From Planctomycetota bacterium (lineage in GTDB: Bacteria > Planctomycetota > UBA8742 > UBA2392): a stretch of DNA of 64,000 bases. The stretch spans positions 1-64,000 of the forward strand of contig JAJVIO010000014.1 in the NCBI GenBank assembly GCA_022071975.1, given 5' to 3'. A program made the position numbers and the translations under genes. Below, piece by piece: positions 1 through 59,309 of the stretch. Position 1 is the stretch's first letter, and each line of letters begins with the position of its first letter. The notes below the pieces were generated by a model. The model was not told the DNA's origin, did not search any database, and was given only the letters and a program-made list of their open reading frames with translations.

Positions 1-178
1 GGCAGGAGGCAGGAGGCAGGAGGCAGGAGGCAGGAGGCAGGAGGCAGGAGGCAGGAGGCAGGAGGCAGGAAGCAGGAGGCAGGACGCAGGAGGCAGGACG
101 CAGGAGGCAGGACGCAGGAGGTAGGAGGCAGGTGGCAGGTGGCAGTTGGCAGGTGGCAGTTAGCAGGTGGCAGGGAAG
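1..178. repeat. GGCAGGA heptamer array (left arm)
   Basis: About 18 to 25 head-to-tail copies of a 7-bp unit, GGCAGGA, nearly perfect from 1 to 70 and decaying (GGCAGGAC, GGTAGGAGGCAGGT, GGCAGTTGGCAGGT) towards 178. It runs directly into the Shine-Dalgarno region of the four-helix-bundle gene. The reverse-complement version of the same unit lies just after that gene at 602-633, so the two arrays face each other across the gene. The array is cut by the window edge. Confidence 0.95.
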
Positions 179-186
179 AGACGATC

Positions 187-579
187 GTGGCCTCCAACGA
201 CGAGAAGGGATTTCGCGGCCTGAAGGTTTGGCAGAAGGGTATGGATGCCGTCGATGCAATCTACGACGTCACGAGGCGGTATCCGCGCGAAGAGCTCTAT
301 GCCCTGACCACGCAAACCAGACGGGCCGCACAGTCGGTGCCCATGAACATCGCCGAAGGGTACCGACGTAAGAAGCATCTGCCGGACTACATGAAGTTCC
401 TCCGCTACGCGGATGGCTCCGCAGCGGAAGTGGAAACTGCGATCGAGATTGCTGAGCGGCAGAGTTACCTGGCACCCGAACTGGCGGCTGGAATCATCGC
501 TCAGTATCAGGAGATTGGACGCATGCTCGGCGGATTGATCCGCAGAATCGAACAAGACGGAGGAGCCAACGAGGACTGA
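187..579 (+). CDS. four-helix-bundle protein, S23/IVP family (TIGR02436-like)
   Basis: About 130 residues, the usual length of this family. Visible hallmarks are an N-terminal GLKVWQKGMD helix, then TTQTRRAAQSVPMNIAEG and a final helix with EIGRMLGGLIRRIE. Family members were first seen inside 23S rRNA intervening sequences and resemble the Avd accessory protein of diversity-generating retroelements; their biochemical role is unknown, though a small basic nucleic-acid-binding helical bundle is likely. I chose GTG at 187 because AGGGAAGAG sits at a good distance upstream, whereas the in-frame ATG at 139 would translate repeat DNA (WQLAGGR). The gene is boxed in by inverted heptamer arms (1-178 and 602-633). 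No reverse transcriptase or rRNA gene is nearby. Confidence 0.85.
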   Translation: MASNDEKGFRGLKVWQKGMDAVDAIYDVTRRYPREELYALTTQTRRAAQSVPMNIAEGYRRKKHLPDYMKFLRYADGSAAEVETAIEIAERQSYLAPELAAGIIAQYQEIGRMLGGLIRRIEQDGGANED

Positions 580-601
580 TCGATTGCAGGAGGTCCATTT
601 G

Positions 602-633
602 CTGCCTCCTGCCTCCAGTCTCCTGCCTCCTGG
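602..633. repeat. heptamer array, reversed (right arm)
   Basis: Units of CTGCCTC/CCTGCCT run for about 32 bp, 22 bp after the stop codon of the four-helix-bundle gene, in the opposite orientation to the array at 1-178. Shorter and more degenerate than the left arm. Confidence 0.85.
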
Positions 634-683
634 CTGTACGATTCTTTGATACTTTTGATGTTCTAACTATTTTTCTTTCATTC

Positions 684-796: not shown

Positions 797-1279
797 ATGG
801 CCAGCATGAAAGTGTTCATGAAGATTGACGGGATGCCGGGCAGCAGCGCGGATGCCAACCACGGCGACTGGTGTGACGTGCGCGGCTTCAGCCACGCCAT
901 GGAATACCCCTTCGACATGCGCGAGAACAAGGGTCGCGGCGAGCCCGTCCACGGCGCTTGCAGCGTGACCAAGGAAATCGACAAGGCCTCGCCCAAGATC
1001 TTCGAAGCGCTGGCCAAGAAGAAGAAGGTCAAGCAGGTCGAGATCGAATTCTGGCGCGACAACCCGAGCGAAGGTGGCAGCGAGAAGTACTTCACCATCC
1101 TCCTCAAGGACTGCCGCGTTGTGAAAGCCCGCCCCTTCATGCCCAGCCAGGGCGAAGGCGCCGCGGACGCCATGCCGCACATGGAAGAGGTCGGTTTCGC
1201 CTACCGCCAGATCGAGTGGACCTGGCTCTCCGGCGGACAGGTGCCCACCACCTTCGACTTCGGCAACCCGGACGCGTAG
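797..1279 (+). CDS. hcp: T6SS tube protein Hcp (TssD)
   Basis: 160 residues, the standard Hcp length. Hcp hexamers stack into the inner tube that carries VgrG and effectors when the contractile sheath fires; it is both structural and secreted. The family pattern is visible: MKIDGMPGSS at the start, the HAMEYPFD segment, a central KEIDKASPKIFEAL helix, then KYFTILLKDCRV and a closing WTWLSGG strand. First gene of the operon, preceded by an AT-rich promoter region and a good ribosome site, and followed by a GC hairpin (1290-1315) that would let hcp be expressed above the downstream genes. No effector domain is fused to it. Confidence 0.96.
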   Translation: MASMKVFMKIDGMPGSSADANHGDWCDVRGFSHAMEYPFDMRENKGRGEPVHGACSVTKEIDKASPKIFEALAKKKKVKQVEIEFWRDNPSEGGSEKYFTILLKDCRVVKARPFMPSQGEGAADAMPHMEEVGFAYRQIEWTWLSGGQVPTTFDFGNPDA

Positions 1280-1322: not shown

Positions 1323-1455
1323 CTGGAGGCAGGAGGCGGGAAGCAGCAACCGCAACTGCACTTTCTTGGTCCCTTAACTGGAGGCTGGAGGAAGAGTCAG
1401 AACTTGGAGGCAGATTGCTTCTCCTGCCTCCTGCTTCCTGCCTCCTCCCTCCTGA
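1323..1455. repeat. heptamer-arm inverted element, no cargo (hcp-tssE gap)
   Basis: Left arm units GGAGGCAGGAGGCGG (1323-1344) and GGAGGCTGGAGGAAG (1379-1413) face the right arm CTCCTGCCTCCTGCTTCCTG (1420-1455). The centre holds no reading frame. The right arm ends in CCTGAA only 6 nt before the GTG start of tssE, so the element forms the whole translation-initiation region of that gene. Confidence 0.85.
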
Positions 1456-1461
1456 AAAGCC

Positions 1462-1878
1462 GTGTTCCAGAAGCGCACCTTGTTTGAGAGGTTGAAGAAC
1501 CCGGAAGGCACCGCGGCCCGCACCCTGGAAGAAGACACCACGGCGCAACTGCGGTCGATCCTCCGCAACCTCGAGCGCATCCTGAACGCGCGGGTGGGCC
1601 AGGCTCCGGCCCAGATGGACTTCGGCATCCCGTCGCCCAGCGAGATCGCGCAGGGCTACCCGGAGTCTCTGACGACGATGCAGAAGACCATCCGCCAGTG
1701 CATCGAACGCTACGAGCCCAGGCTGCGCGACGTGCAGGTGATGCAGATCGAAAGCGACGACTTCCGGCTGGCCGTGCGCTTCCAGGTGACCGCGCGCCTG
1801 GCCACCACCAAGGAAGGACGCCAGGTCAGCTTTGACACGCTGATGGACCCGTCAGGACACGTGAATCTGAATGCATAG
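1462..1878 (+). CDS. tssE: T6SS baseplate wedge protein TssE (gp25-like)
   Basis: 138 residues with the gp25/GPW fold pattern: a TLFERLKNP N-terminus, a helix RSILRNLERILNAR, the IPSPSEIAQGYPES stretch, TIRQCIERYEPRL, and a final pair of strands (VQVMQIE, LAVRFQVTARL). TssE is a baseplate component related to phage T4 gp25 that helps start sheath assembly. The start is GTG at 1462; no Shine-Dalgarno is visible because the preceding 40 bases are heptamer-repeat DNA. Translation may therefore be leader-independent or weak. Followed by another heptamer element before tssF. Confidence 0.9.
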   Translation: MFQKRTLFERLKNPEGTAARTLEEDTTAQLRSILRNLERILNARVGQAPAQMDFGIPSPSEIAQGYPESLTTMQKTIRQCIERYEPRLRDVQVMQIESDDFRLAVRFQVTARLATTKEGRQVSFDTLMDPSGHVNLNA

Positions 1879-1880
1879 CG

Positions 1881-2030
1881 ACCAGGCGGCAGGCGGCAGG
1901 AGGCAGGAAGCAGGCGAAGCCTGCACTACCTCAGGACTGTGAAACGAAGAGATTGGAGGCAGGACGCAGGCAGCTGGAAACGATTCGGAGGCAGTACCTG
2001 CTTCCTGCATCCTGCCTCCTGCATCCTGAA
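1881..2030. repeat. heptamer-arm inverted element, no cargo (tssE-tssF gap)
   Basis: Left arm ACCAGGCGGCAGGCGGCAGG (from 1881) starts 2 nt after the tssE stop and continues with GGAGGCAGGACGCAGG (1953-1972). The right arm, CCTGCTTCCTGCATCCTGCC and on to 2030, ends with CCTGAA 5 nt before the GTG start of tssF. It is a second insertion of the same family within one operon. Confidence 0.85.
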
Positions 2031-2035
2031 ACAGC

Positions 2036-3775
2036 GTGTTCAACAAGTACTACCAGGACGAGTTGGTTTTCCTGCGCGACATGGGGCGCGAGTTTTCCGC
2101 CGCGAATCCCGAGGCCGCGCGCTTCCTCGCCGAGCCGGGCAGCGACCCGGACGTCGAGCGCATGCTGGAAGGTTTCGCGTTCCTGGCCGCCAAGCTGCGC
2201 CAGAAACTGGATGACGAGCTGCCCGAGTTCACGCACTCGCTGACCGAGATGCTCTGGCCGCATTACCTGCGACCGATCCCCAGCACCACCATCATGCAGT
2301 TCGAGCACGCCAACCGCGACACCGCCGAGCTCAAAACCCTGCCCGCCGGCATCGAGATCGACTCCGTGCCCGTGGACGGCACCCGCTGCCGCTTCCGCAC
2401 CAGCAGCGCGCTCGACCTGCTGCCGCTCGAACTCACCGAGGTCCAGCTGCGCCGTGAGGCCCCGGCCCGCCTGCGCCTGCAGCTCAAGGTGCCCGACAAG
2501 CTGGGCCTGGGGCGCGCCGGCCTCAAAACCCTGCGCCTGCACCTGGCCGGCGAGCCCGCTGTGACCCGCGCCCTGTACGTCTCGCTGCTGCGCCACGTGC
2601 GCCGCGTGGTGGTCAGCAAGGGTGATGACAGCGCGCGCTACGAGCTGCCGGCTTCCGCGATCCGCGCCGTCGGCTTCCGCGAAGACGAGGCCCTGCTGGG
2701 CGGCCCCGGACCCAGCTTCCCCGGCTTCCGCCTGCTGCAGGAGTACTTCACCGCGCCGGCCAAGTTCATGTTCATTGATCTCGAGCGCCTGGACGGCACG
2801 GCGAACTTCGGCCTGGAAAGCCGCTTCACCATAGATTTCGAGTTTGCACGCCTGCCGGACAACATGCCGCCCGTCAGCCGCGCCAACCTGCAGCTGAACT
2901 GCGTGCCCGCCGTGAACCTGTTCAAGCACGACGCCGACCCGGTCCGCCTCCAGCGCGGCCGCACCGAGTACGCCGTGCGCCCCATGGGCGACGACCCGCG
3001 CCATTACGAAGTGCACTCGATCGACCGCGTGTACGGCCTTGAGGTGGGCACGGCGCAGGAGCGCGTCTTCAACCCGCAGTTCCGCCTGGCGCGCAGCGGG
3101 CGCCGCGACGAGCTGTTCTATCACGCGCGCCGCCGCGAGGCCGTGGCCGGCACCGGCAGCGAAATGCTGATCACCTTCCTGGACCCGGAAGACCCCGCGG
3201 CCCGGCCGAACATCGAGACGGTGACGCTCGACCTCACCTGCACCAACGCGCAGCTGCCCAGCCGGCTGGACGCGGGCGACGTGTCGGTGAAAACCGGCAA
3301 CGCGCCGCTGTTCGCGAAGTACCGCAACATCTCGCGCCCCACCGCCAGCGTGCCGCCGCCCCTGAGCGGCGACCTGCACTGGCGGCTGATCGCGCACCTG
3401 TCGCTGAACTACATGTCGCTGCTGAGCGCCGAGGCGCTGCGCAGCGTGATCGGACTCTATAACTTCAGGGCCCGCATTGACCGCCAGACCGAGCAGGCCC
3501 ACGCCAGGCTGCTGGACGGCATCAAGGGCGCCCACGGCGTGCCGAGCTCGATGCTGGTGGACGGCATGCCGGTGCGCGGCCTGGACGTCGAATTGAACGT
3601 AGACGAAGAGCTGCTGGGCGGCGAAGGCGAAACCTTCCTGCTGGGCAGCGTGCTGAACGAATTTTTCGCGCAATACGTGTCGCTGAACGCTTTCAGCAGG
3701 CTCAAGGTGAAGGGCGCGAAACGGGGAGAGGTGTTCCAATGGCCGGCACGGATTGGCAAACGCGCCATCCTGTAA
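2036..3775 (+). CDS. tssF: T6SS baseplate protein TssF (VasA/ImpG)
   Basis: 579 residues, close to the usual length. The N-terminus is diagnostic: YYQDELVFLRDMGREFSAANP, then ERMLEGFAFLAAKLRQKLDD and LTEMLWPHYLRPIPSTTIMQ. TssF joins TssG, TssE and TssK in the wedge that surrounds VgrG and recruits the sheath. GTG start at 2036 abuts heptamer-repeat DNA with no clear ribosome site. The last 37 bp overlap tssG, which implies translational coupling. Confidence 0.95.
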   Translation: MFNKYYQDELVFLRDMGREFSAANPEAARFLAEPGSDPDVERMLEGFAFLAAKLRQKLDDELPEFTHSLTEMLWPHYLRPIPSTTIMQFEHANRDTAELKTLPAGIEIDSVPVDGTRCRFRTSSALDLLPLELTEVQLRREAPARLRLQLKVPDKLGLGRAGLKTLRLHLAGEPAVTRALYVSLLRHVRRVVVSKGDDSARYELPASAIRAVGFREDEALLGGPGPSFPGFRLLQEYFTAPAKFMFIDLERLDGTANFGLESRFTIDFEFARLPDNMPPVSRANLQLNCVPAVNLFKHDADPVRLQRGRTEYAVRPMGDDPRHYEVHSIDRVYGLEVGTAQERVFNPQFRLARSGRRDELFYHARRREAVAGTGSEMLITFLDPEDPAARPNIETVTLDLTCTNAQLPSRLDAGDVSVKTGNAPLFAKYRNISRPTASVPPPLSGDLHWRLIAHLSLNYMSLLSAEALRSVIGLYNFRARIDRQTEQAHARLLDGIKGAHGVPSSMLVDGMPVRGLDVELNVDEELLGGEGETFLLGSVLNEFFAQYVSLNAFSRLKVKGAKRGEVFQWPARIGKRAIL

Positions 3776-9941: not shown

Positions 9942-12212
9942 GTGGAGATCCGCAACCGCACGCCCTATGCCTTCGCGCCCCTGATGGGCCGGGTCAACTT
10001 CCCGGCCCACACGGCCACGCTGACCGTGAAGGCCGGCTTCCGCATCGTGCCGGGCGGCATCGTCGAGCCGCTGGACAAGCAGCCGGACCTCGAGGGCGAC
10101 GTGCCCAGCGCCGCCGCGCGCCCGGAGTGCCTGTACGCCGCCGACCTGGCCCAGTTCAAGCCCAGGGCCGACCTGCTGCTGCGCGCCGTGTGCCACACCC
10201 CGGGCCAGAAGGGCCTGACGGCCTGCAACGTGCGCTTCCGTGTCGGTGATTGGCAGAAAGAGCTGGCGGTGATCGGCAACCGCCATTGGGAGAAGGGCCT
10301 GGTCTTCAGCAAGATGAGCGAGCCCGAGCTGTTCACCCGCGTGGAGCTGACCTGGGGCAATGCCTTCGGCGGCGAGAAGTTCGCATTAAACCCGGCCGGC
10401 AAGGGCCGCAAGGACGGCCTGCTGCCGAACGTCGAGTATCCCGACGAGCTGATCAAGAGCCCCGGCAACCAGCCCACGCCCGCCGGCTTCGGCCCCATTG
10501 ACCGCACCTGGAAGCAGCGCAACAGCAAGCTCGGCACCTGCGACAAGAAGTGGCTGAAAGAGCGCTGGCCGGCCTTCCCCAAGGACTTCGACTGGACGCA
10601 CTTCAACGCGGCCCCCGAAGACCAGCAGCTGGAAGGCTTCCTGCGCGGCGACGAGGAAATCGAGCTGCTGAACATGCACCCGCAGCATGCGCGGCTCACC
10701 ACCCGGCTGCCCGGCCTGCGCGTGCGCGTGCTGCTGCGCGAGGGCGAGCCGGCCGCCGTGCGCGAAGTGCCCATGAACCTCGACACCCTGTACGTGGACG
10801 CCGAGAAGCTTGAGCTGATCCTGACCTGGCGCGGCGTCGCGAACGTAAGCGACTCCGATTGGGAAGAGTGCCGCGAAATCCTGATCGCCCAGGAACCGCT
10901 CGGCGAAAACCGCGAGCTGGAGCAGCTGCTGCCCCTGTTCGAGGAGCCCGGCGAAGAGGCCGAAGTCGAGGAAGCCGAAGAGCCCGAAGTCCCGCGCGAG
11001 CAGAAGATCAAGATCGTCGAAGACCAGATCAAGCGCGCCGAGCAGCTCGCCCTCGAGCAGGAACGCGCCGTCTTCGCCCAGGTGCAGAAACAGCTGGGCG
11101 CCGATGAGGCCAAAAAACTGATCGGCGGCGCCAAGGCCGAGGTCTCCAGCCTCGAGGCCCTGGTCAACAAGTACATGAGCGGCCAGGTTGCCAAGGACGC
11201 GGTCAAGGGCTCCGACTTCAGCCCGGCCGCGCTGGACCCGCGCAAGGACCCGGAGCTGGCCAAAGCCATCAAGGCGCTGGACAAGCCGGTGCCGCAGCCG
11301 CCCGCCGACAAGACCGGCCTGAGCGCCATGCTGAAATCCGGCGAGGCCGGCGGCGGCGACTTCAGCGGCGCGGACGCATCGGGCGAAGACCTGAGCGGCG
11401 CCGACCTGCGCGACACCTACTTCAACGGCGCCAACCTGGCCGGCGCGAAGCTGGCGGGCGCGAAGCTGAACGGCGCGTCCCTGATGGACGCCAACCTGGA
11501 AGGCGCGGACCTGTCCGAGGCCGACCTGTCCGAGGCCGACCTCACCGGCGCCAACCTGGCCGGCGCGAAGCTGACCGGCGCGATCCTGAACGAAGCCGTG
11601 CTGATCAACGCCCAGGCGCCGAACGCGAGCTTCGACGGCGCCCAGGGCGCATCGGTGCTGATGCTCGGCCTGAAGGCCGCGGGCGCCAGCTTCAAGGGCG
11701 CCGCGCTTGCCGAGGCCGTGTTCAGCAACGCCACGCTCGAGCAGGCCGACTTCAGCGGCGCGCAGCTCAAGGACGCCGCCTTTGACGGCGTGCTGGGCGC
11801 CGGCGCGAATTTCGAGGCCGCACAACTGGCCGGCTTCCGCGGTGGCGAGGCTTCGGACTTCACGGGCGCGAACTTCCAGAAGGCGCAGGCCGAGGGTTGC
11901 GTGTTCGAGCGCAGCACGCTGATTGAGGCCGACTTCCGTGGCGCCAACCTGAAGGCCGCCCAGTTCATGTTCAGCGACCTGACCGGCGCCAAGCTGTACG
12001 GCGCCGACCTGGCCGGCAGCATGCTGCGCAAGGCCAAGCTGGCCAAGGCCGAAGCCGGCAATGCCAACTTCTTCCAGGCGCAGCTGGAGGCCGCCGACCT
12101 CAGCAACGCCTCGCTGGTTGCCAGCAATTTCTACGAAGCCGAGTTCCTGGACGCGAAAACCGAAGGCGCTGACTTCGCGGGCGCCAACCTGAAAATGACG
12201 AAGCTGGCCTGA
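9942..12212 (+). CDS. DUF2169 + pentapeptide-repeat T6SS accessory protein
   Basis: 756 residues in three parts. Residues about 1-300 are DUF2169 (RNRTPYAFAPLMGRVNF, LVVKA-type strands, ELTWGNAFGGEKF, NPAGKG), a domain found next to vgrG and proposed to be a loading adaptor. Residues about 320-420 are acidic then helical (EEPGEEAEVEEAEEPE; IKRAEQLALEQERAVFAQVQ), likely coiled coil. Residues about 465-750 are pentapeptide repeats of the A(D/N)LxG type, predicted to form a right-handed square beta-helix. GTG start 10 nt after vgrG with AAGGAAG upstream. Its last base overlaps the next ATG. Adaptor function is inferred from context. Confidence 0.85.
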   Translation: MEIRNRTPYAFAPLMGRVNFPAHTATLTVKAGFRIVPGGIVEPLDKQPDLEGDVPSAAARPECLYAADLAQFKPRADLLLRAVCHTPGQKGLTACNVRFRVGDWQKELAVIGNRHWEKGLVFSKMSEPELFTRVELTWGNAFGGEKFALNPAGKGRKDGLLPNVEYPDELIKSPGNQPTPAGFGPIDRTWKQRNSKLGTCDKKWLKERWPAFPKDFDWTHFNAAPEDQQLEGFLRGDEEIELLNMHPQHARLTTRLPGLRVRVLLREGEPAAVREVPMNLDTLYVDAEKLELILTWRGVANVSDSDWEECREILIAQEPLGENRELEQLLPLFEEPGEEAEVEEAEEPEVPREQKIKIVEDQIKRAEQLALEQERAVFAQVQKQLGADEAKKLIGGAKAEVSSLEALVNKYMSGQVAKDAVKGSDFSPAALDPRKDPELAKAIKALDKPVPQPPADKTGLSAMLKSGEAGGGDFSGADASGEDLSGADLRDTYFNGANLAGAKLAGAKLNGASLMDANLEGADLSEADLSEADLTGANLAGAKLTGAILNEAVLINAQAPNASFDGAQGASVLMLGLKAAGASFKGAALAEAVFSNATLEQADFSGAQLKDAAFDGVLGAGANFEAAQLAGFRGGEASDFTGANFQKAQAEGCVFERSTLIEADFRGANLKAAQFMFSDLTGAKLYGADLAGSMLRKAKLAKAEAGNANFFQAQLEAADLSNASLVASNFYEAEFLDAKTEGADFAGANLKMTKLA

Positions 12213-14128
12213 TGACACCCCTGACCCAACAACAGCTGCTGCAGAAAGCCAAAGCCGGTGAGCCCCTGCAGGATTGCCTGCTCGAGGGCGGCGACCTCGG
12301 CGGCGCCGACCTGCACGGCCTGAACCTCGCGGGCCTGACCCTGGTGGGCGTGCGCCTGGCGGGCGCCAACCTGGCGGGCGCGGACCTGTCGGGCCTGCGT
12401 GCCAGCAATTGCGACTTCACCCAGGCGAAGCTGGATGACGCGAACCTGTCCGGCGCGATCATCGACCCGGCCTGCAGGCTCGACGGCGCCAGCCTGCTGC
12501 GCGCCAACCTGTCCGAGGCGGGCGCGGCGTTTGCCTCGCTGCAGCGCGCCGACCTGCGCGACGCCAACCTGGGCAACTGCATGCTGAACGGCGCCAACCT
12601 GGCCGCCGCGAAACTGGCCGATTGCAACGCCGAGGGCGCGGGCTTCGACGGCGCTGACCTTTCGGGCACGGACTTCAGCGGCGCCAAGCTGCGCGATGCC
12701 TCGCTGATCAAGGCCGCACTCGAGGGCGCGAACTTCAGCCGCGCGGACCTGACCGGCGCCCTGCTGGCCTACGCAGACCTGAAGCAAGCCAACTTCGAGG
12801 GCTCGCTGCTGGAAGGCGTGCTGGCCGACAACGCGGACCTGGCCGGTGTTTCCGGCCTGCCCGCCGTCGTGCACGCCTCGTTCCGCGACGCCAACCTGGC
12901 GGGCGTGGATTTCTCCGGCCGTGACATCGCCGGCAGCGCCTTCGTGCGCGCGAACCTGTCGGGTGCGAAGCTGAAGGATGTGAAGGCCGAAGGGGCGGAT
13001 TTCAGCAACACCGACCTCGCGGGCGTCGAGCTCACGGGCGGCGAGTTCCCCCACTGCCTGTTCACCGAGGCGAAGCTGGCCGGCGCGAAGCTGGCGGGCT
13101 GCCCCCTGCCCGGTGCCGCCTTCGACGGCTGCGACCTGGCGGGCCAGGATTTCAGCGGCTGCGACCTGTCGGGCGCGATTTTCACCGGCGCCACGGTAAA
13201 GGGTTTCGTGCTGCGCGACGCCACGCTGCACGGCGCGCTGTTCGATGAACTGGAGTTGGAAGGCTTCGACTTCAGCGGCCTCGACCTGCACGAGGCGGAC
13301 TTCGCCGGCTCAAGGCTGAAGGGCGCGCGCTTCAAGGGCGCCAACCTGGAAGGCTGCGACTTCGCCCAGGCCGACGCCGCCAACGCCGACTTCAGCGGCG
13401 CGAACCTGAAGGCCGCCACCTTCATCCAGGCCGACCTGACCGGCGCGCGTTTTAACGACGCGCAGCTGGATGAAACCGTGCTGTCCGAGGCGAAGCTGGC
13501 TGGCGCGTCGTTCCGGGGTGCCGCGCTGAAGGGCGTCAGCCTGGCCGAAACCGACCTGCGCGAAGTGGGCATCGCGGGCGGCAACTTCAGCCAGTGCGAG
13601 TTGCGCAAGGCCAACCTGAACGGCCTGAACCTCGAGGGCGCCAGCTTCCCGTTGTGCGACTTCGAAGAGGCCGACCTGGCCGGCGTCAACTTCGCGGGCG
13701 GCGACCTGACCCAGGCCGCCTTCAAGGCCGCGAAGCTGGAGAAGACCAACTTCCGCGGCGCCAAGCTGGTGGGCGCCAGCTTCGAGAACGCGAACGCCGC
13801 CGGCGCCGTGTTCTCGGGCGCGAACCTGCACATGGCTGCGTTCCCCGGCGCCAACGCCGAAGGCGCGCTGTTCGACGGCGCGGACATCCGCGAGACGTTC
13901 CTCGATAAGCTGAACGCGCGGCAGGCGAAGTTCAACAAGGCCGTCGCCCACTACGCCATGTTCATACACGCCAACCTGCAACTGGCCGACTTCAGCGGCG
14001 CCGACCTGCTGGGGGCGGACCTGCACGGCGCCCTGGAAGACGGCGCGCGCTGGGACAAGGCCAACCTGAAGCAGGTCAAACGCACCGATGCCGACAAGCT
14101 AGAGGCCGAAAACTGGAAGCCCAAGTAG
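12212..14128 (+). CDS. giant pentapeptide-repeat protein in T6SS tip module
   Basis: 638 residues, almost all written in a five-residue rhythm (A-D/N-L-x-G, A-x-F-x-G) from about residue 25 to 620, with a short N-terminal helix (TQQQLLQKAKAGEPLQ). A run this long predicts a beta-helix rod more than 100 A long. The central cysteines (GCDLAGQDFSGCDLSG) punctuate the repeats. Overlaps the DUF2169 gene by one base (TGATG) and is followed 14 bp later by the DUF3540 gene. Similar repeat proteins sit beside DUF2169/DUF3540/DUF4150 genes in other T6SS clusters; whether they are cargo, scaffold or immunity is not known. No catalytic domain is visible. Confidence 0.88.
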   Translation: MTPLTQQQLLQKAKAGEPLQDCLLEGGDLGGADLHGLNLAGLTLVGVRLAGANLAGADLSGLRASNCDFTQAKLDDANLSGAIIDPACRLDGASLLRANLSEAGAAFASLQRADLRDANLGNCMLNGANLAAAKLADCNAEGAGFDGADLSGTDFSGAKLRDASLIKAALEGANFSRADLTGALLAYADLKQANFEGSLLEGVLADNADLAGVSGLPAVVHASFRDANLAGVDFSGRDIAGSAFVRANLSGAKLKDVKAEGADFSNTDLAGVELTGGEFPHCLFTEAKLAGAKLAGCPLPGAAFDGCDLAGQDFSGCDLSGAIFTGATVKGFVLRDATLHGALFDELELEGFDFSGLDLHEADFAGSRLKGARFKGANLEGCDFAQADAANADFSGANLKAATFIQADLTGARFNDAQLDETVLSEAKLAGASFRGAALKGVSLAETDLREVGIAGGNFSQCELRKANLNGLNLEGASFPLCDFEEADLAGVNFAGGDLTQAAFKAAKLEKTNFRGAKLVGASFENANAAGAVFSGANLHMAAFPGANAEGALFDGADIRETFLDKLNARQAKFNKAVAHYAMFIHANLQLADFSGADLLGADLHGALEDGARWDKANLKQVKRTDADKLEAENWKPK

Positions 14129-23352: not shown

Positions 23353-23396
23353 TCGAAGATGCGCCTAGCGAGGCGCGCTGAAGGGTTGATGGTTTC

Positions 23397-23475
23397 AAGG
23401 CGCGAGGCGGGAGGCGTGAGGCGGGAAGAACTGCTGTTGCCCATGCCGCACGCCTCACGCCTCACGCCGCTTGCC
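23397..23475. repeat. GAGGCGT-type heptamer inverted element (pilB-pilT gap)
   Basis: Left arm AAGGCGCGAGGCGGGAGGCG (23397-23426) faces right arm CGCACGCCTCACGCCTCACG (23448-23475) across a 21-bp centre. The unit is GAGGCGT/GAGGCGG, i.e. again about 7 bp but different in sequence from the GGCAGGA family. The right arm is followed by CCTGAACAGAAGG, whose AGAAGGA is the ribosome site of pilT. Confidence 0.85.
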
Positions 23476-23491
23476 TGAACAGAAGGATCGC

Positions 23492-24634
<1,143 letters not shown>

Positions 24635-28920: not shown

Positions 28921-29101
28921 TCAGGAGGCAGTTTTCAGGAGGCAGGAGGCAGGATGCAGGAGGCAGGAGGCAGGAGGCAGAAGGCAGGAGGCAGGCGGCA
29001 GGAAGTAGGAAGCGGACGATAGTTCGCAGGGGAAGTCATCAGAATGCCCGCAGGGGCGTCAGCTTTTCCTGCATCCTGCATCCAGCCTCCTGCCTCCTGA
29101 A
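28921..29101. repeat. heptamer-arm inverted element, no cargo (uppS-GNAT gap)
   Basis: Left arm of about 92 bp begins TCAGGAGGCAG and runs through more than ten GGCAGGA units to 29012; the centre is 54 bp without a gene; the right arm (29067-29101) reads CCTGCATCCTGCATCC and on, ending CTGCCTCCTGA. The tips TCAGGAGGCAG and CTGCCTCCTGA are exact reverse complements. The right tip ends 1-2 nt from the stop codon of the GNAT gene. Confidence 0.9.
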
Positions 29102-37388: not shown

Positions 37389-37431
37389 CCTCTGACCTCT
37401 AACCTCTAACCTCTGACCTCCGACCTCTGAC
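37389..37431. repeat. CTCTGAC heptamer array (single arm)
   Basis: Six head-to-tail units CTCTGAC, CTCTAAC, CTCTAAC, CTCTGAC, CTCCGAC, CTCTGAC upstream of uvrC. The same unit forms inverted arms at 40654-40736. No convincing partner arm near this copy. Confidence 0.85.
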
Positions 37432-40602: not shown

Positions 40603-40653
40603 AGCAACCAGGTGATTCGGCCGTTGTTGCGCCATCCAGGCGTTCTGCCTGGT

Positions 40654-40736
40654 GCGAGAGGTCAGAGGCCGAAGGTCAGAGGCCAGGGCAAACCACCTGA
40701 AGCGGCTTCCCTGTCCTCTGACCTCTAACCTCTCGC
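40654..40736. repeat. CTCTGAC-type heptamer inverted element (no cargo)
   Basis: Left arm GCGAGAGGTCAGAGG (to 40684) and right arm CCTCTGACCTCTAACCTCTCGC in reverse (40715-40736) share tips GCGAGAGGT/ACCTCTCGC across a 30-bp centre. Lies in the convergent gap between the TauE-like gene and the RND pump gene. Confidence 0.88.
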
Positions 40737-59074: not shown

Positions 59075-59309
59075 GGACTGTCCCCGAAGTTGGGGACTGT
59101 CCCTGTAGTCGAAGCAGAACCGGCGGGGGTAGCTGCTTCAACTAGCGAATTACCAATAACCAATTACCAATTACCAATTTTCAATGGCGCTCGAATGCGA
59201 GGTCATTGGTAATTGAAAATTGGTTATTGGTAATTTGCTGTTTAAACCGTGCGGAACGACAACTCCGGCTCGACTACGGGGACAGTCCCCAACTGCGGGG
59301 ACAGTCCCC
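59074..59309. repeat. composite inverted element: GGGGACTGTCCCC arms around AATTACC heptamer arms
   Basis: Outer left palindromes at 59074-59085 and 59092-59103, outer right at 59278-59290 and 59297-59309, with conserved flank GTAGTCG/CGACTAC making the two halves inverted copies over about 45 bp. Inside, AATTACCAATAACCAATTAC (59148-59185) faces its reverse (59205-59236), 7-bp unit ACCAATT, with an 18-bp centre. No gene; AT-rich core in a GC-rich genome. Confidence 0.9.

Follow-up and report, generated by a model that had tools for sequence, protein, structure and literature searches.

The hcp, tssE and tssF genes of a type VI secretion system (T6SS) lie near the start of a 64,000-nucleotide (nt) stretch of planctomycete DNA (contig JAJVIO010000014.1, positions 1 to 64,000; hereafter the window), and each of the two gaps between them holds a hairpin element, here called A and B. 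We propose that A and B are probably members, lacking an open reading frame (ORF), of a class of hairpins whose full-size form has an ORF for the S23 protein between inverted arms of tandem heptamers, and that they are insertions mobilised by S23. The two elements are best read as having replaced, or as abutting, the start regions of tssE and tssF. We assign them to this class because an S23 ORF lies inside the same arms at 1-635 and because an S23 copy occupies the tssE-tssF gap of two relatives, G006 and G014. Elements of this class are widespread and little noticed, and they appear to be linked to a small protein of four helices; the length of their repeated word is kept, whereas its letters vary freely. 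The features concerned are as follows.

About 1320-1456, no strand: element A, an ORF-less heptamer-armed hairpin in the hcp/tssE gap (sequence reading, arm search, folding).
1883-2030, no strand: element B, an ORF-less heptamer-armed hairpin in the tssE/tssF gap (sequence reading, arm search, folding).
1-635, plus strand: full-size element, cut by the contig start, with a GGAGGCA array at 1-174, the S23 ORF and an inverted CTGCCTC arm at 602-632.
139-579, plus strand: S23 / 23S rRNA-intervening-sequence protein, a four-helix bundle (PF05635, E 4.8e-32; TIGR02436, E 3.5e-31).

Direct reading of the sequence places a G-rich left arm at about 1320-1348 and a complementary C-rich right arm at 1418-1456 in A, and the corresponding arms of B at 1883-1914 and 1993-2030. 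In both elements, the arm unit is the heptamer GGAGGCA in inverted orientation. With two mismatches allowed, GGAGGCAGGAGGCAG matches the window 47 times against 0.45 expected, and arm sites number about 200 genome-wide (96 forward and 107 reverse) against 0 in the reversed control, so the arms did not arise by chance. The claim of the initial annotation that two repeat elements form the start regions of tssE and tssF is borne out. RNA folding gives -77.4 kcal/mol for A (z -5.3) and -79.1 kcal/mol for B (z -6.3). Both elements terminate in CCTGAA (1451-1456 and 2025-2030), an end that is a feature of the family because it also occurs in the element at 28934-29101 and in those of G006 and G014. 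Outside the arms, the ORF-less cores, of about 70-80 nt each, have only an arm-like 10-mer in common (local score 20 vs 13 shuffled, p 0.02). A and B have the inverted arms of tandem 7-nt units and no S23 ORF between them, and we class them solely as ORF-less relatives of S23 elements. Neither is a 23S rRNA intervening sequence: both sit between protein genes, and there is no rRNA match in 1-2400. Rfam matches to plant and animal microRNA models were rejected as chance; they lay far under the gathering score and matched the long hairpin.

The S23 ORF at 139-579 scores above the curated cut-offs of both families (110.8 bits vs 33.8 for PF05635; 107.6 vs 24 for TIGR02436), and its solved structural relatives are 2gsc and 2rld. 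Homology with the near relative G002 picks up again at 636, after the full-size element. The initial annotation had missed this ORF, as well as the fact that GGAGGCA is one unit among many, and its overall reading stands in part.

How general is the association between S23 and short-period arms? We compared 124 S23 loci: a first set of 40, a further 80 from many phyla, which were those nearest to the query set and hence no random sample of S23, and loci on cyanobacterial plasmids. For the genome scan, the first S23 profile was too broad and a closer set was used instead. Among the first 40 loci, most S23 ORFs lie between inverted arms of short period, whose unit differs from locus to locus. 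At a score of at least 14, inverted arms flank 96 of the 124 loci, vs 2.4% in controls that pair the upstream flank of one locus with the downstream flank of another; at a score of at least 20, the figures are 44% and 0.3%. The period is 7 in 73 of the 96 armed loci, 8 in 16, and other or none in 7, and the left (5') arm is G-rich in 87. The repeat unit changes freely, and the period follows the S23 tree. A common unit (at least 6 of 7 letters) is found in 46% of pairs with at least 60% S23 identity vs 4% of random pairs. On the S23 tree, the period changes 9 times against a shuffled mean of 14.9, with 0 of 500 shuffles as low; a second shuffle seed gave p 0.002 overall, 0.018 for Planctomycetota alone and 0.004 without Bacteroidota. 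Within the 13 Bacteroidota there was no signal.

We took the tssE-tssF gap from 16 genomes of the family, G000 being the genome of this window. Clear arms of 7-nt period are present in this gap in 7 of the 14 genomes compared, with at least five different units. The ORF-less hairpins are built of GGAGGCA in G000, TAGGTTG in G002, a GGGCCTG-like unit in G005, CAGGTTT in G011 and AAAATTC in G015. In G006 and G014 (genus g2), a complete S23 copy with GGAGGCA arms fills the gap, and its end, CCTGAACTGCC-GTGTTCAAC, resembles that of B. Weaker hairpins occur in G001, G004 and G007. No such element is found in the gaps of G003 (38 nt), G009 (47 nt) and G012 (about 55 nt), and the gap is 17 nt in G010 and G013. 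For two hits in one operon, target preference or duplication of the gap had been suggested; recurrence at the same gap is supported, and duplication is not, the cores of A and B being unrelated.

The DNA of G000 and G002 is 91-95% identical and colinear over the greater part of the window, although some stretches have diverged. Their units differ at hcp-tssE, at tssE-tssF and at 23355-23492, and agree at 28934 and 59144. When 17 further GGAGGCA sites of G000 were compared with the G002 gaps, contracted arrays (L013, L014, L015) were among the states found. G002 has a different unit within identical boundaries at L005 (between CCAAG and TGATTCCTGAACC) and L020 (between GAACGAA and TGATAGTACTCC), and a nested AATTACC element at L009. 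Contracted arrays, units swapped within kept boundaries, and nesting indicate that positions persist and contents change. Such elements occur in gaps that run from one gene's stop codon to the start of the next gene. Nested hairpins, with elements of one heptamer family inside those of another, were also noted at L009 / L205 and L012. Upstream of hcp in G002 (L083:19250-19950), a tssB-like gene has GTTGTCA heptamer hairpins on both sides. These arms were not counted as an S23 element; the ORF between them is not S23 and looks like tssB (by eye, not by family search).

Cyanobacteria, among which Nostocales hold most plasmid S23 genes, offer insertion states for comparison. Nostoc plasmids show three states of one gap, which follows a TraM-like gene: in C057 (L191, L192) it is empty and 52 nt long, in N. 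edaphicum and C052 (L185, L186) it contains an S23 element armed with GGGAACA, and in ATCC 53789 (L190) it contains an ORF-less hairpin. A second ORF-less insertion, L193, has an empty counterpart in L194; a 3-nt target-site duplication (TCA) is suggested by this single pair, in which the element is composite. Plasmid pANA02 of Anabaena sp. 90 has a type I-D clustered regularly interspaced short palindromic repeats (CRISPR) operon in which an S23 element (L187:1983-2351) separates cas6 from cas4, the right arm of the element reaching into the annotated start of cas4. Dolichospermum UHCC 0315A, 98.9% identical to Anabaena sp. 90 in aligned parts, is without the cas6-cas4 element. Whatever the mechanism, whole elements were gained or lost between these states. 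In Pseudanabaena galeata, too, an S23 gene lies among the cas genes.

What do the elements do to the start regions of tssE and tssF? The relevant features are these.

797-1279, plus strand: hcp, T6SS tube protein (family matches).
1453-1455, plus strand: TGA in the terminal CCTGAA of element A, in the tssE frame, which excludes an upstream start.
1462-1878, plus strand: tssE, starting at GTG with no Shine-Dalgarno; the native GGAGGCCGCC leader has been lost (family match, relatives compared).
2027-2029, plus strand: TGA in the terminal CCTGAA of element B, an in-frame stop for tssF.
2036-3775, plus strand: tssF, GTG start, no Shine-Dalgarno (family match, relatives compared).

CCTGAA had been placed 5 to 6 nt before the GTG codons; the spacer is exactly 5 nt in both cases, AAGCC in A (GTG 1462) and ACAGC in B (GTG 2036). 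Both GTGs are firm starts because an in-frame TGA sits two codons upstream of each, which rules out upstream alternatives, and because the N-termini MFQKRT (tssE) and MFNKYY (tssF) are kept in relatives. This disposes of the possibility, raised earlier, that the true starts lie elsewhere. The reported lack of a visible Shine-Dalgarno also holds, with no AGGA, GGAG or GAGG 4-13 nt upstream of either GTG. Initiation without this motif is ordinary here, since it precedes the first candidate start of only 12 of 39 conserved genes of this genome; when any early candidate start is counted, 23 of 39 have it, vs 14.5 for random positions, an approximate background, as the start calls of this genome are uncertain.

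The initial annotation asked whether insertion replaced a native leader or was tolerated because initiation works without one, and proposed comparing the gaps in relatives. That comparison gives a different answer for each gene. Before tssE, GGAGGCCGCC-ATG is kept in G002 and in G011, which belongs to another genus, and is gone here, where the start is GTG; because these relatives keep it, replacement of the native tssE leader is supported. For tssF, tolerance of a missing Shine-Dalgarno is the better reading because most relatives, element or no element, likewise lack one there, as do many genes of this genome.

We envisage that A and B arrived as insertions and that the S23 protein, alone or together with host enzymes, probably mobilises such elements in trans via their periodic arms. 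After arrival, slippage, arm-to-arm copying and nested insertion would alter the arms, leaving the site in place and changing its unit. In the hcp-tssE-tssF transcript, each element would form a hairpin of about 75-79 kcal/mol, which would probably be cut by RNase III, by analogy with 23S intervening sequences (PMC4990558). Such cutting would put hcp on a message apart from tssE and tssF, and these two genes would then initiate with no Shine-Dalgarno, as is the case for many genes here. Several points weigh against this account. No transposition was observed and no consistent target-site duplication was defined. S23 is without recognisable catalytic residues, nothing indicates its expression, and the S23 of Coxiella is probably not expressed (PMC4990558). 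The ORF-less elements are without any common core sequence, and the two arms have unlike units at many loci. At several sites, the unit differs between G000 and G002 inside the same outer boundaries, a pattern that in-place change explains no less well than fresh insertion does. Finally, the absence of heptamer arrays from S23-less planctomycete stretches comes from a small sample, with 0 in 186 kb compared with 4, and a further 2 of period 8, in 200 kb.

The main rival explanation needs no S23. The arms would be simple-sequence repeats that make themselves by 7-nt slippage and by template switching between arms at any small palindrome, with S23 a mere passenger. In many bacteria, long repeat units are most often heptamers, and polymerase footprint has been suggested as the cause (Mrazek 2007, cited in PMC4679880 and PMC4692102). 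Between G000 and G002, arrays change in place in both copy number and unit. Slippage and arm copying surely act as well. However, they leave unexplained the tie to S23, 77% of whose ORFs are bracketed by arms, and the inheritance of a period (7 or 8) that tracks the S23 tree even in Planctomycetota alone (p 0.018) or without Bacteroidota (p 0.004). A polymerase footprint predicts no S23-tied period, and we consider this explanation unlikely.

Could the hairpins instead be conserved regulatory or processing elements of the T6SS operon, with the fold kept by selection while the sequence drifts? Their folds are very stable and they recur in the same gaps of relatives, but the operons of G003, G009 and G012 have short tssE-tssF gaps with no such hairpin, and the same hairpins stand at unrelated genes throughout the genome; this origin is improbable. 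Even less credible is a single insertion followed by gap duplication. It would account for the identical unit and CCTGAA end of A and B, yet their cores are unrelated, neither core nor flanks are common outside the arms, and the CCTGAA end belongs to the family. We give equally little credence to an assembly artefact in repeat DNA: the contig does start within a heptamer array, but the gap elements are shorter than 150 nt and comparable elements stand at the same places in independent genomes.

Parts of this picture are already published, namely heptamer hairpins near starts in Xanthomonas, Nostoc and Beggiatoaceae, and S23 in the heptamer-bearing Coxiella intervening sequence. Cyanobacteria of the order Nostocales also have short tandemly repeated repetitive (STRR) heptanucleotides, which are intergenic 7-nt tandem repeats. 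Like the elements described here, the Coxiella 23S intervening sequence combines an S23 ORF with adjoining tandem heptamers, whose number varies between strains, and a 28-bp terminal inverted repeat, the stem at which RNase III excises it (PMC4990558). Unlike that sequence, which has the unit GACAGAT and lies in helix 45 of 23S rRNA, the present elements are found in gaps between protein genes, and A and B have no ORF. The GGGAATC and GGGGA(C/T)T heptameric repeats of Xanthomonas and Nostoc (PMC4692102) are similar in that each Xanthomonas genome has 70-75 convergent inverted pairs, in the same gaps in relatives. Their C-rich strand lies 0-50 bp before ORFs and their G-rich strand 0-50 bp past stops; they were taken as G-quadruplex repeats of unknown role, with no tie to mobile elements and no S23 in the text. 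The TAACTGA repeats of Beggiatoaceae (PMC4679880) likewise place heptamers a few nt before start codons, with a Shine-Dalgarno in about 10% of repeat regions. Unlike the elements here, they mostly form direct arrays of a single unit and were interpreted as sites bound by a translational regulator. A general link between S23 and heptamer arms was not found in the papers searched, a set without most subscription papers.

The elements also resemble miniature inverted-repeat transposable elements (MITEs) and repetitive extragenic palindrome doublets forming hairpins (REPINs) in being small, dispersed, palindromic, non-autonomous copies alongside a coding copy. MITEs and REPINs, however, have conserved terminal sequence and a transposase, whereas arm period alone is conserved here. 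A and B do have their unit in common with the S23 element at 1-635, yet sites with unlike arm units are common. No transposase for the elements was found. A reverse transcriptase might act as mobiliser by analogy with Avd; the sole RVT_1 (reverse transcriptase) match in the genome, G000:C17:66204-66872, is away from S23.

Three further hairpins of the window were compared with G002.

23398-23468, no strand: ORF-less hairpin built of GGCGTGA; in G002 this gap holds a hairpin of CAGGTTT type.
28934-29101, no strand: GGAGGCA hairpin that directly adjoins the stop codon of the minus-strand gene; also present in G002.
59144-59239, no strand: ORF-less hairpin of the AATTACC family; common to G002.

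The AT-rich AATTACC hairpin family (59144-59239; L051, L052, G000:C30) has its own divergent S23 subfamily, and its 33-nt end (about ATTGGTTATTGGTAATTTGCTGTT) occurs at some 20 places in G002. An AGAGGTC heptamer hairpin stands between convergent genes at 40651-40730, where G002 has a different, CCGCGAAG-type repeat. At 37389-37431, six copies of CCTCTGA lie between co-directional genes, apparently as one arm only. Tandem repeats of period 15 and 30 at 11389-13189 resemble coding pentapeptide repeats.

Several reports describe heptamer repeats near bacterial starts and leave them unexplained; our data tie these repeats to S23. This link explains how such hairpins can come to make up gene start regions. 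To our knowledge, the S23 protein has no known function, and it gains a testable role, namely acting on arms of period 7 or 8. More tentatively, and with considerable doubt on our part, mobile elements of a single class may occur across all bacteria, their termini being recognised or built by S23 according to period (7 or 8 nt) and not sequence, with 23S intervening sequences, cyanobacterial and xanthomonad heptamers and the hairpins described here as traces of that class. If the link to S23 is right, one class of element would account for rRNA intervening sequences, for several 'mystery' repeats and for the fast turnover of operon gaps.
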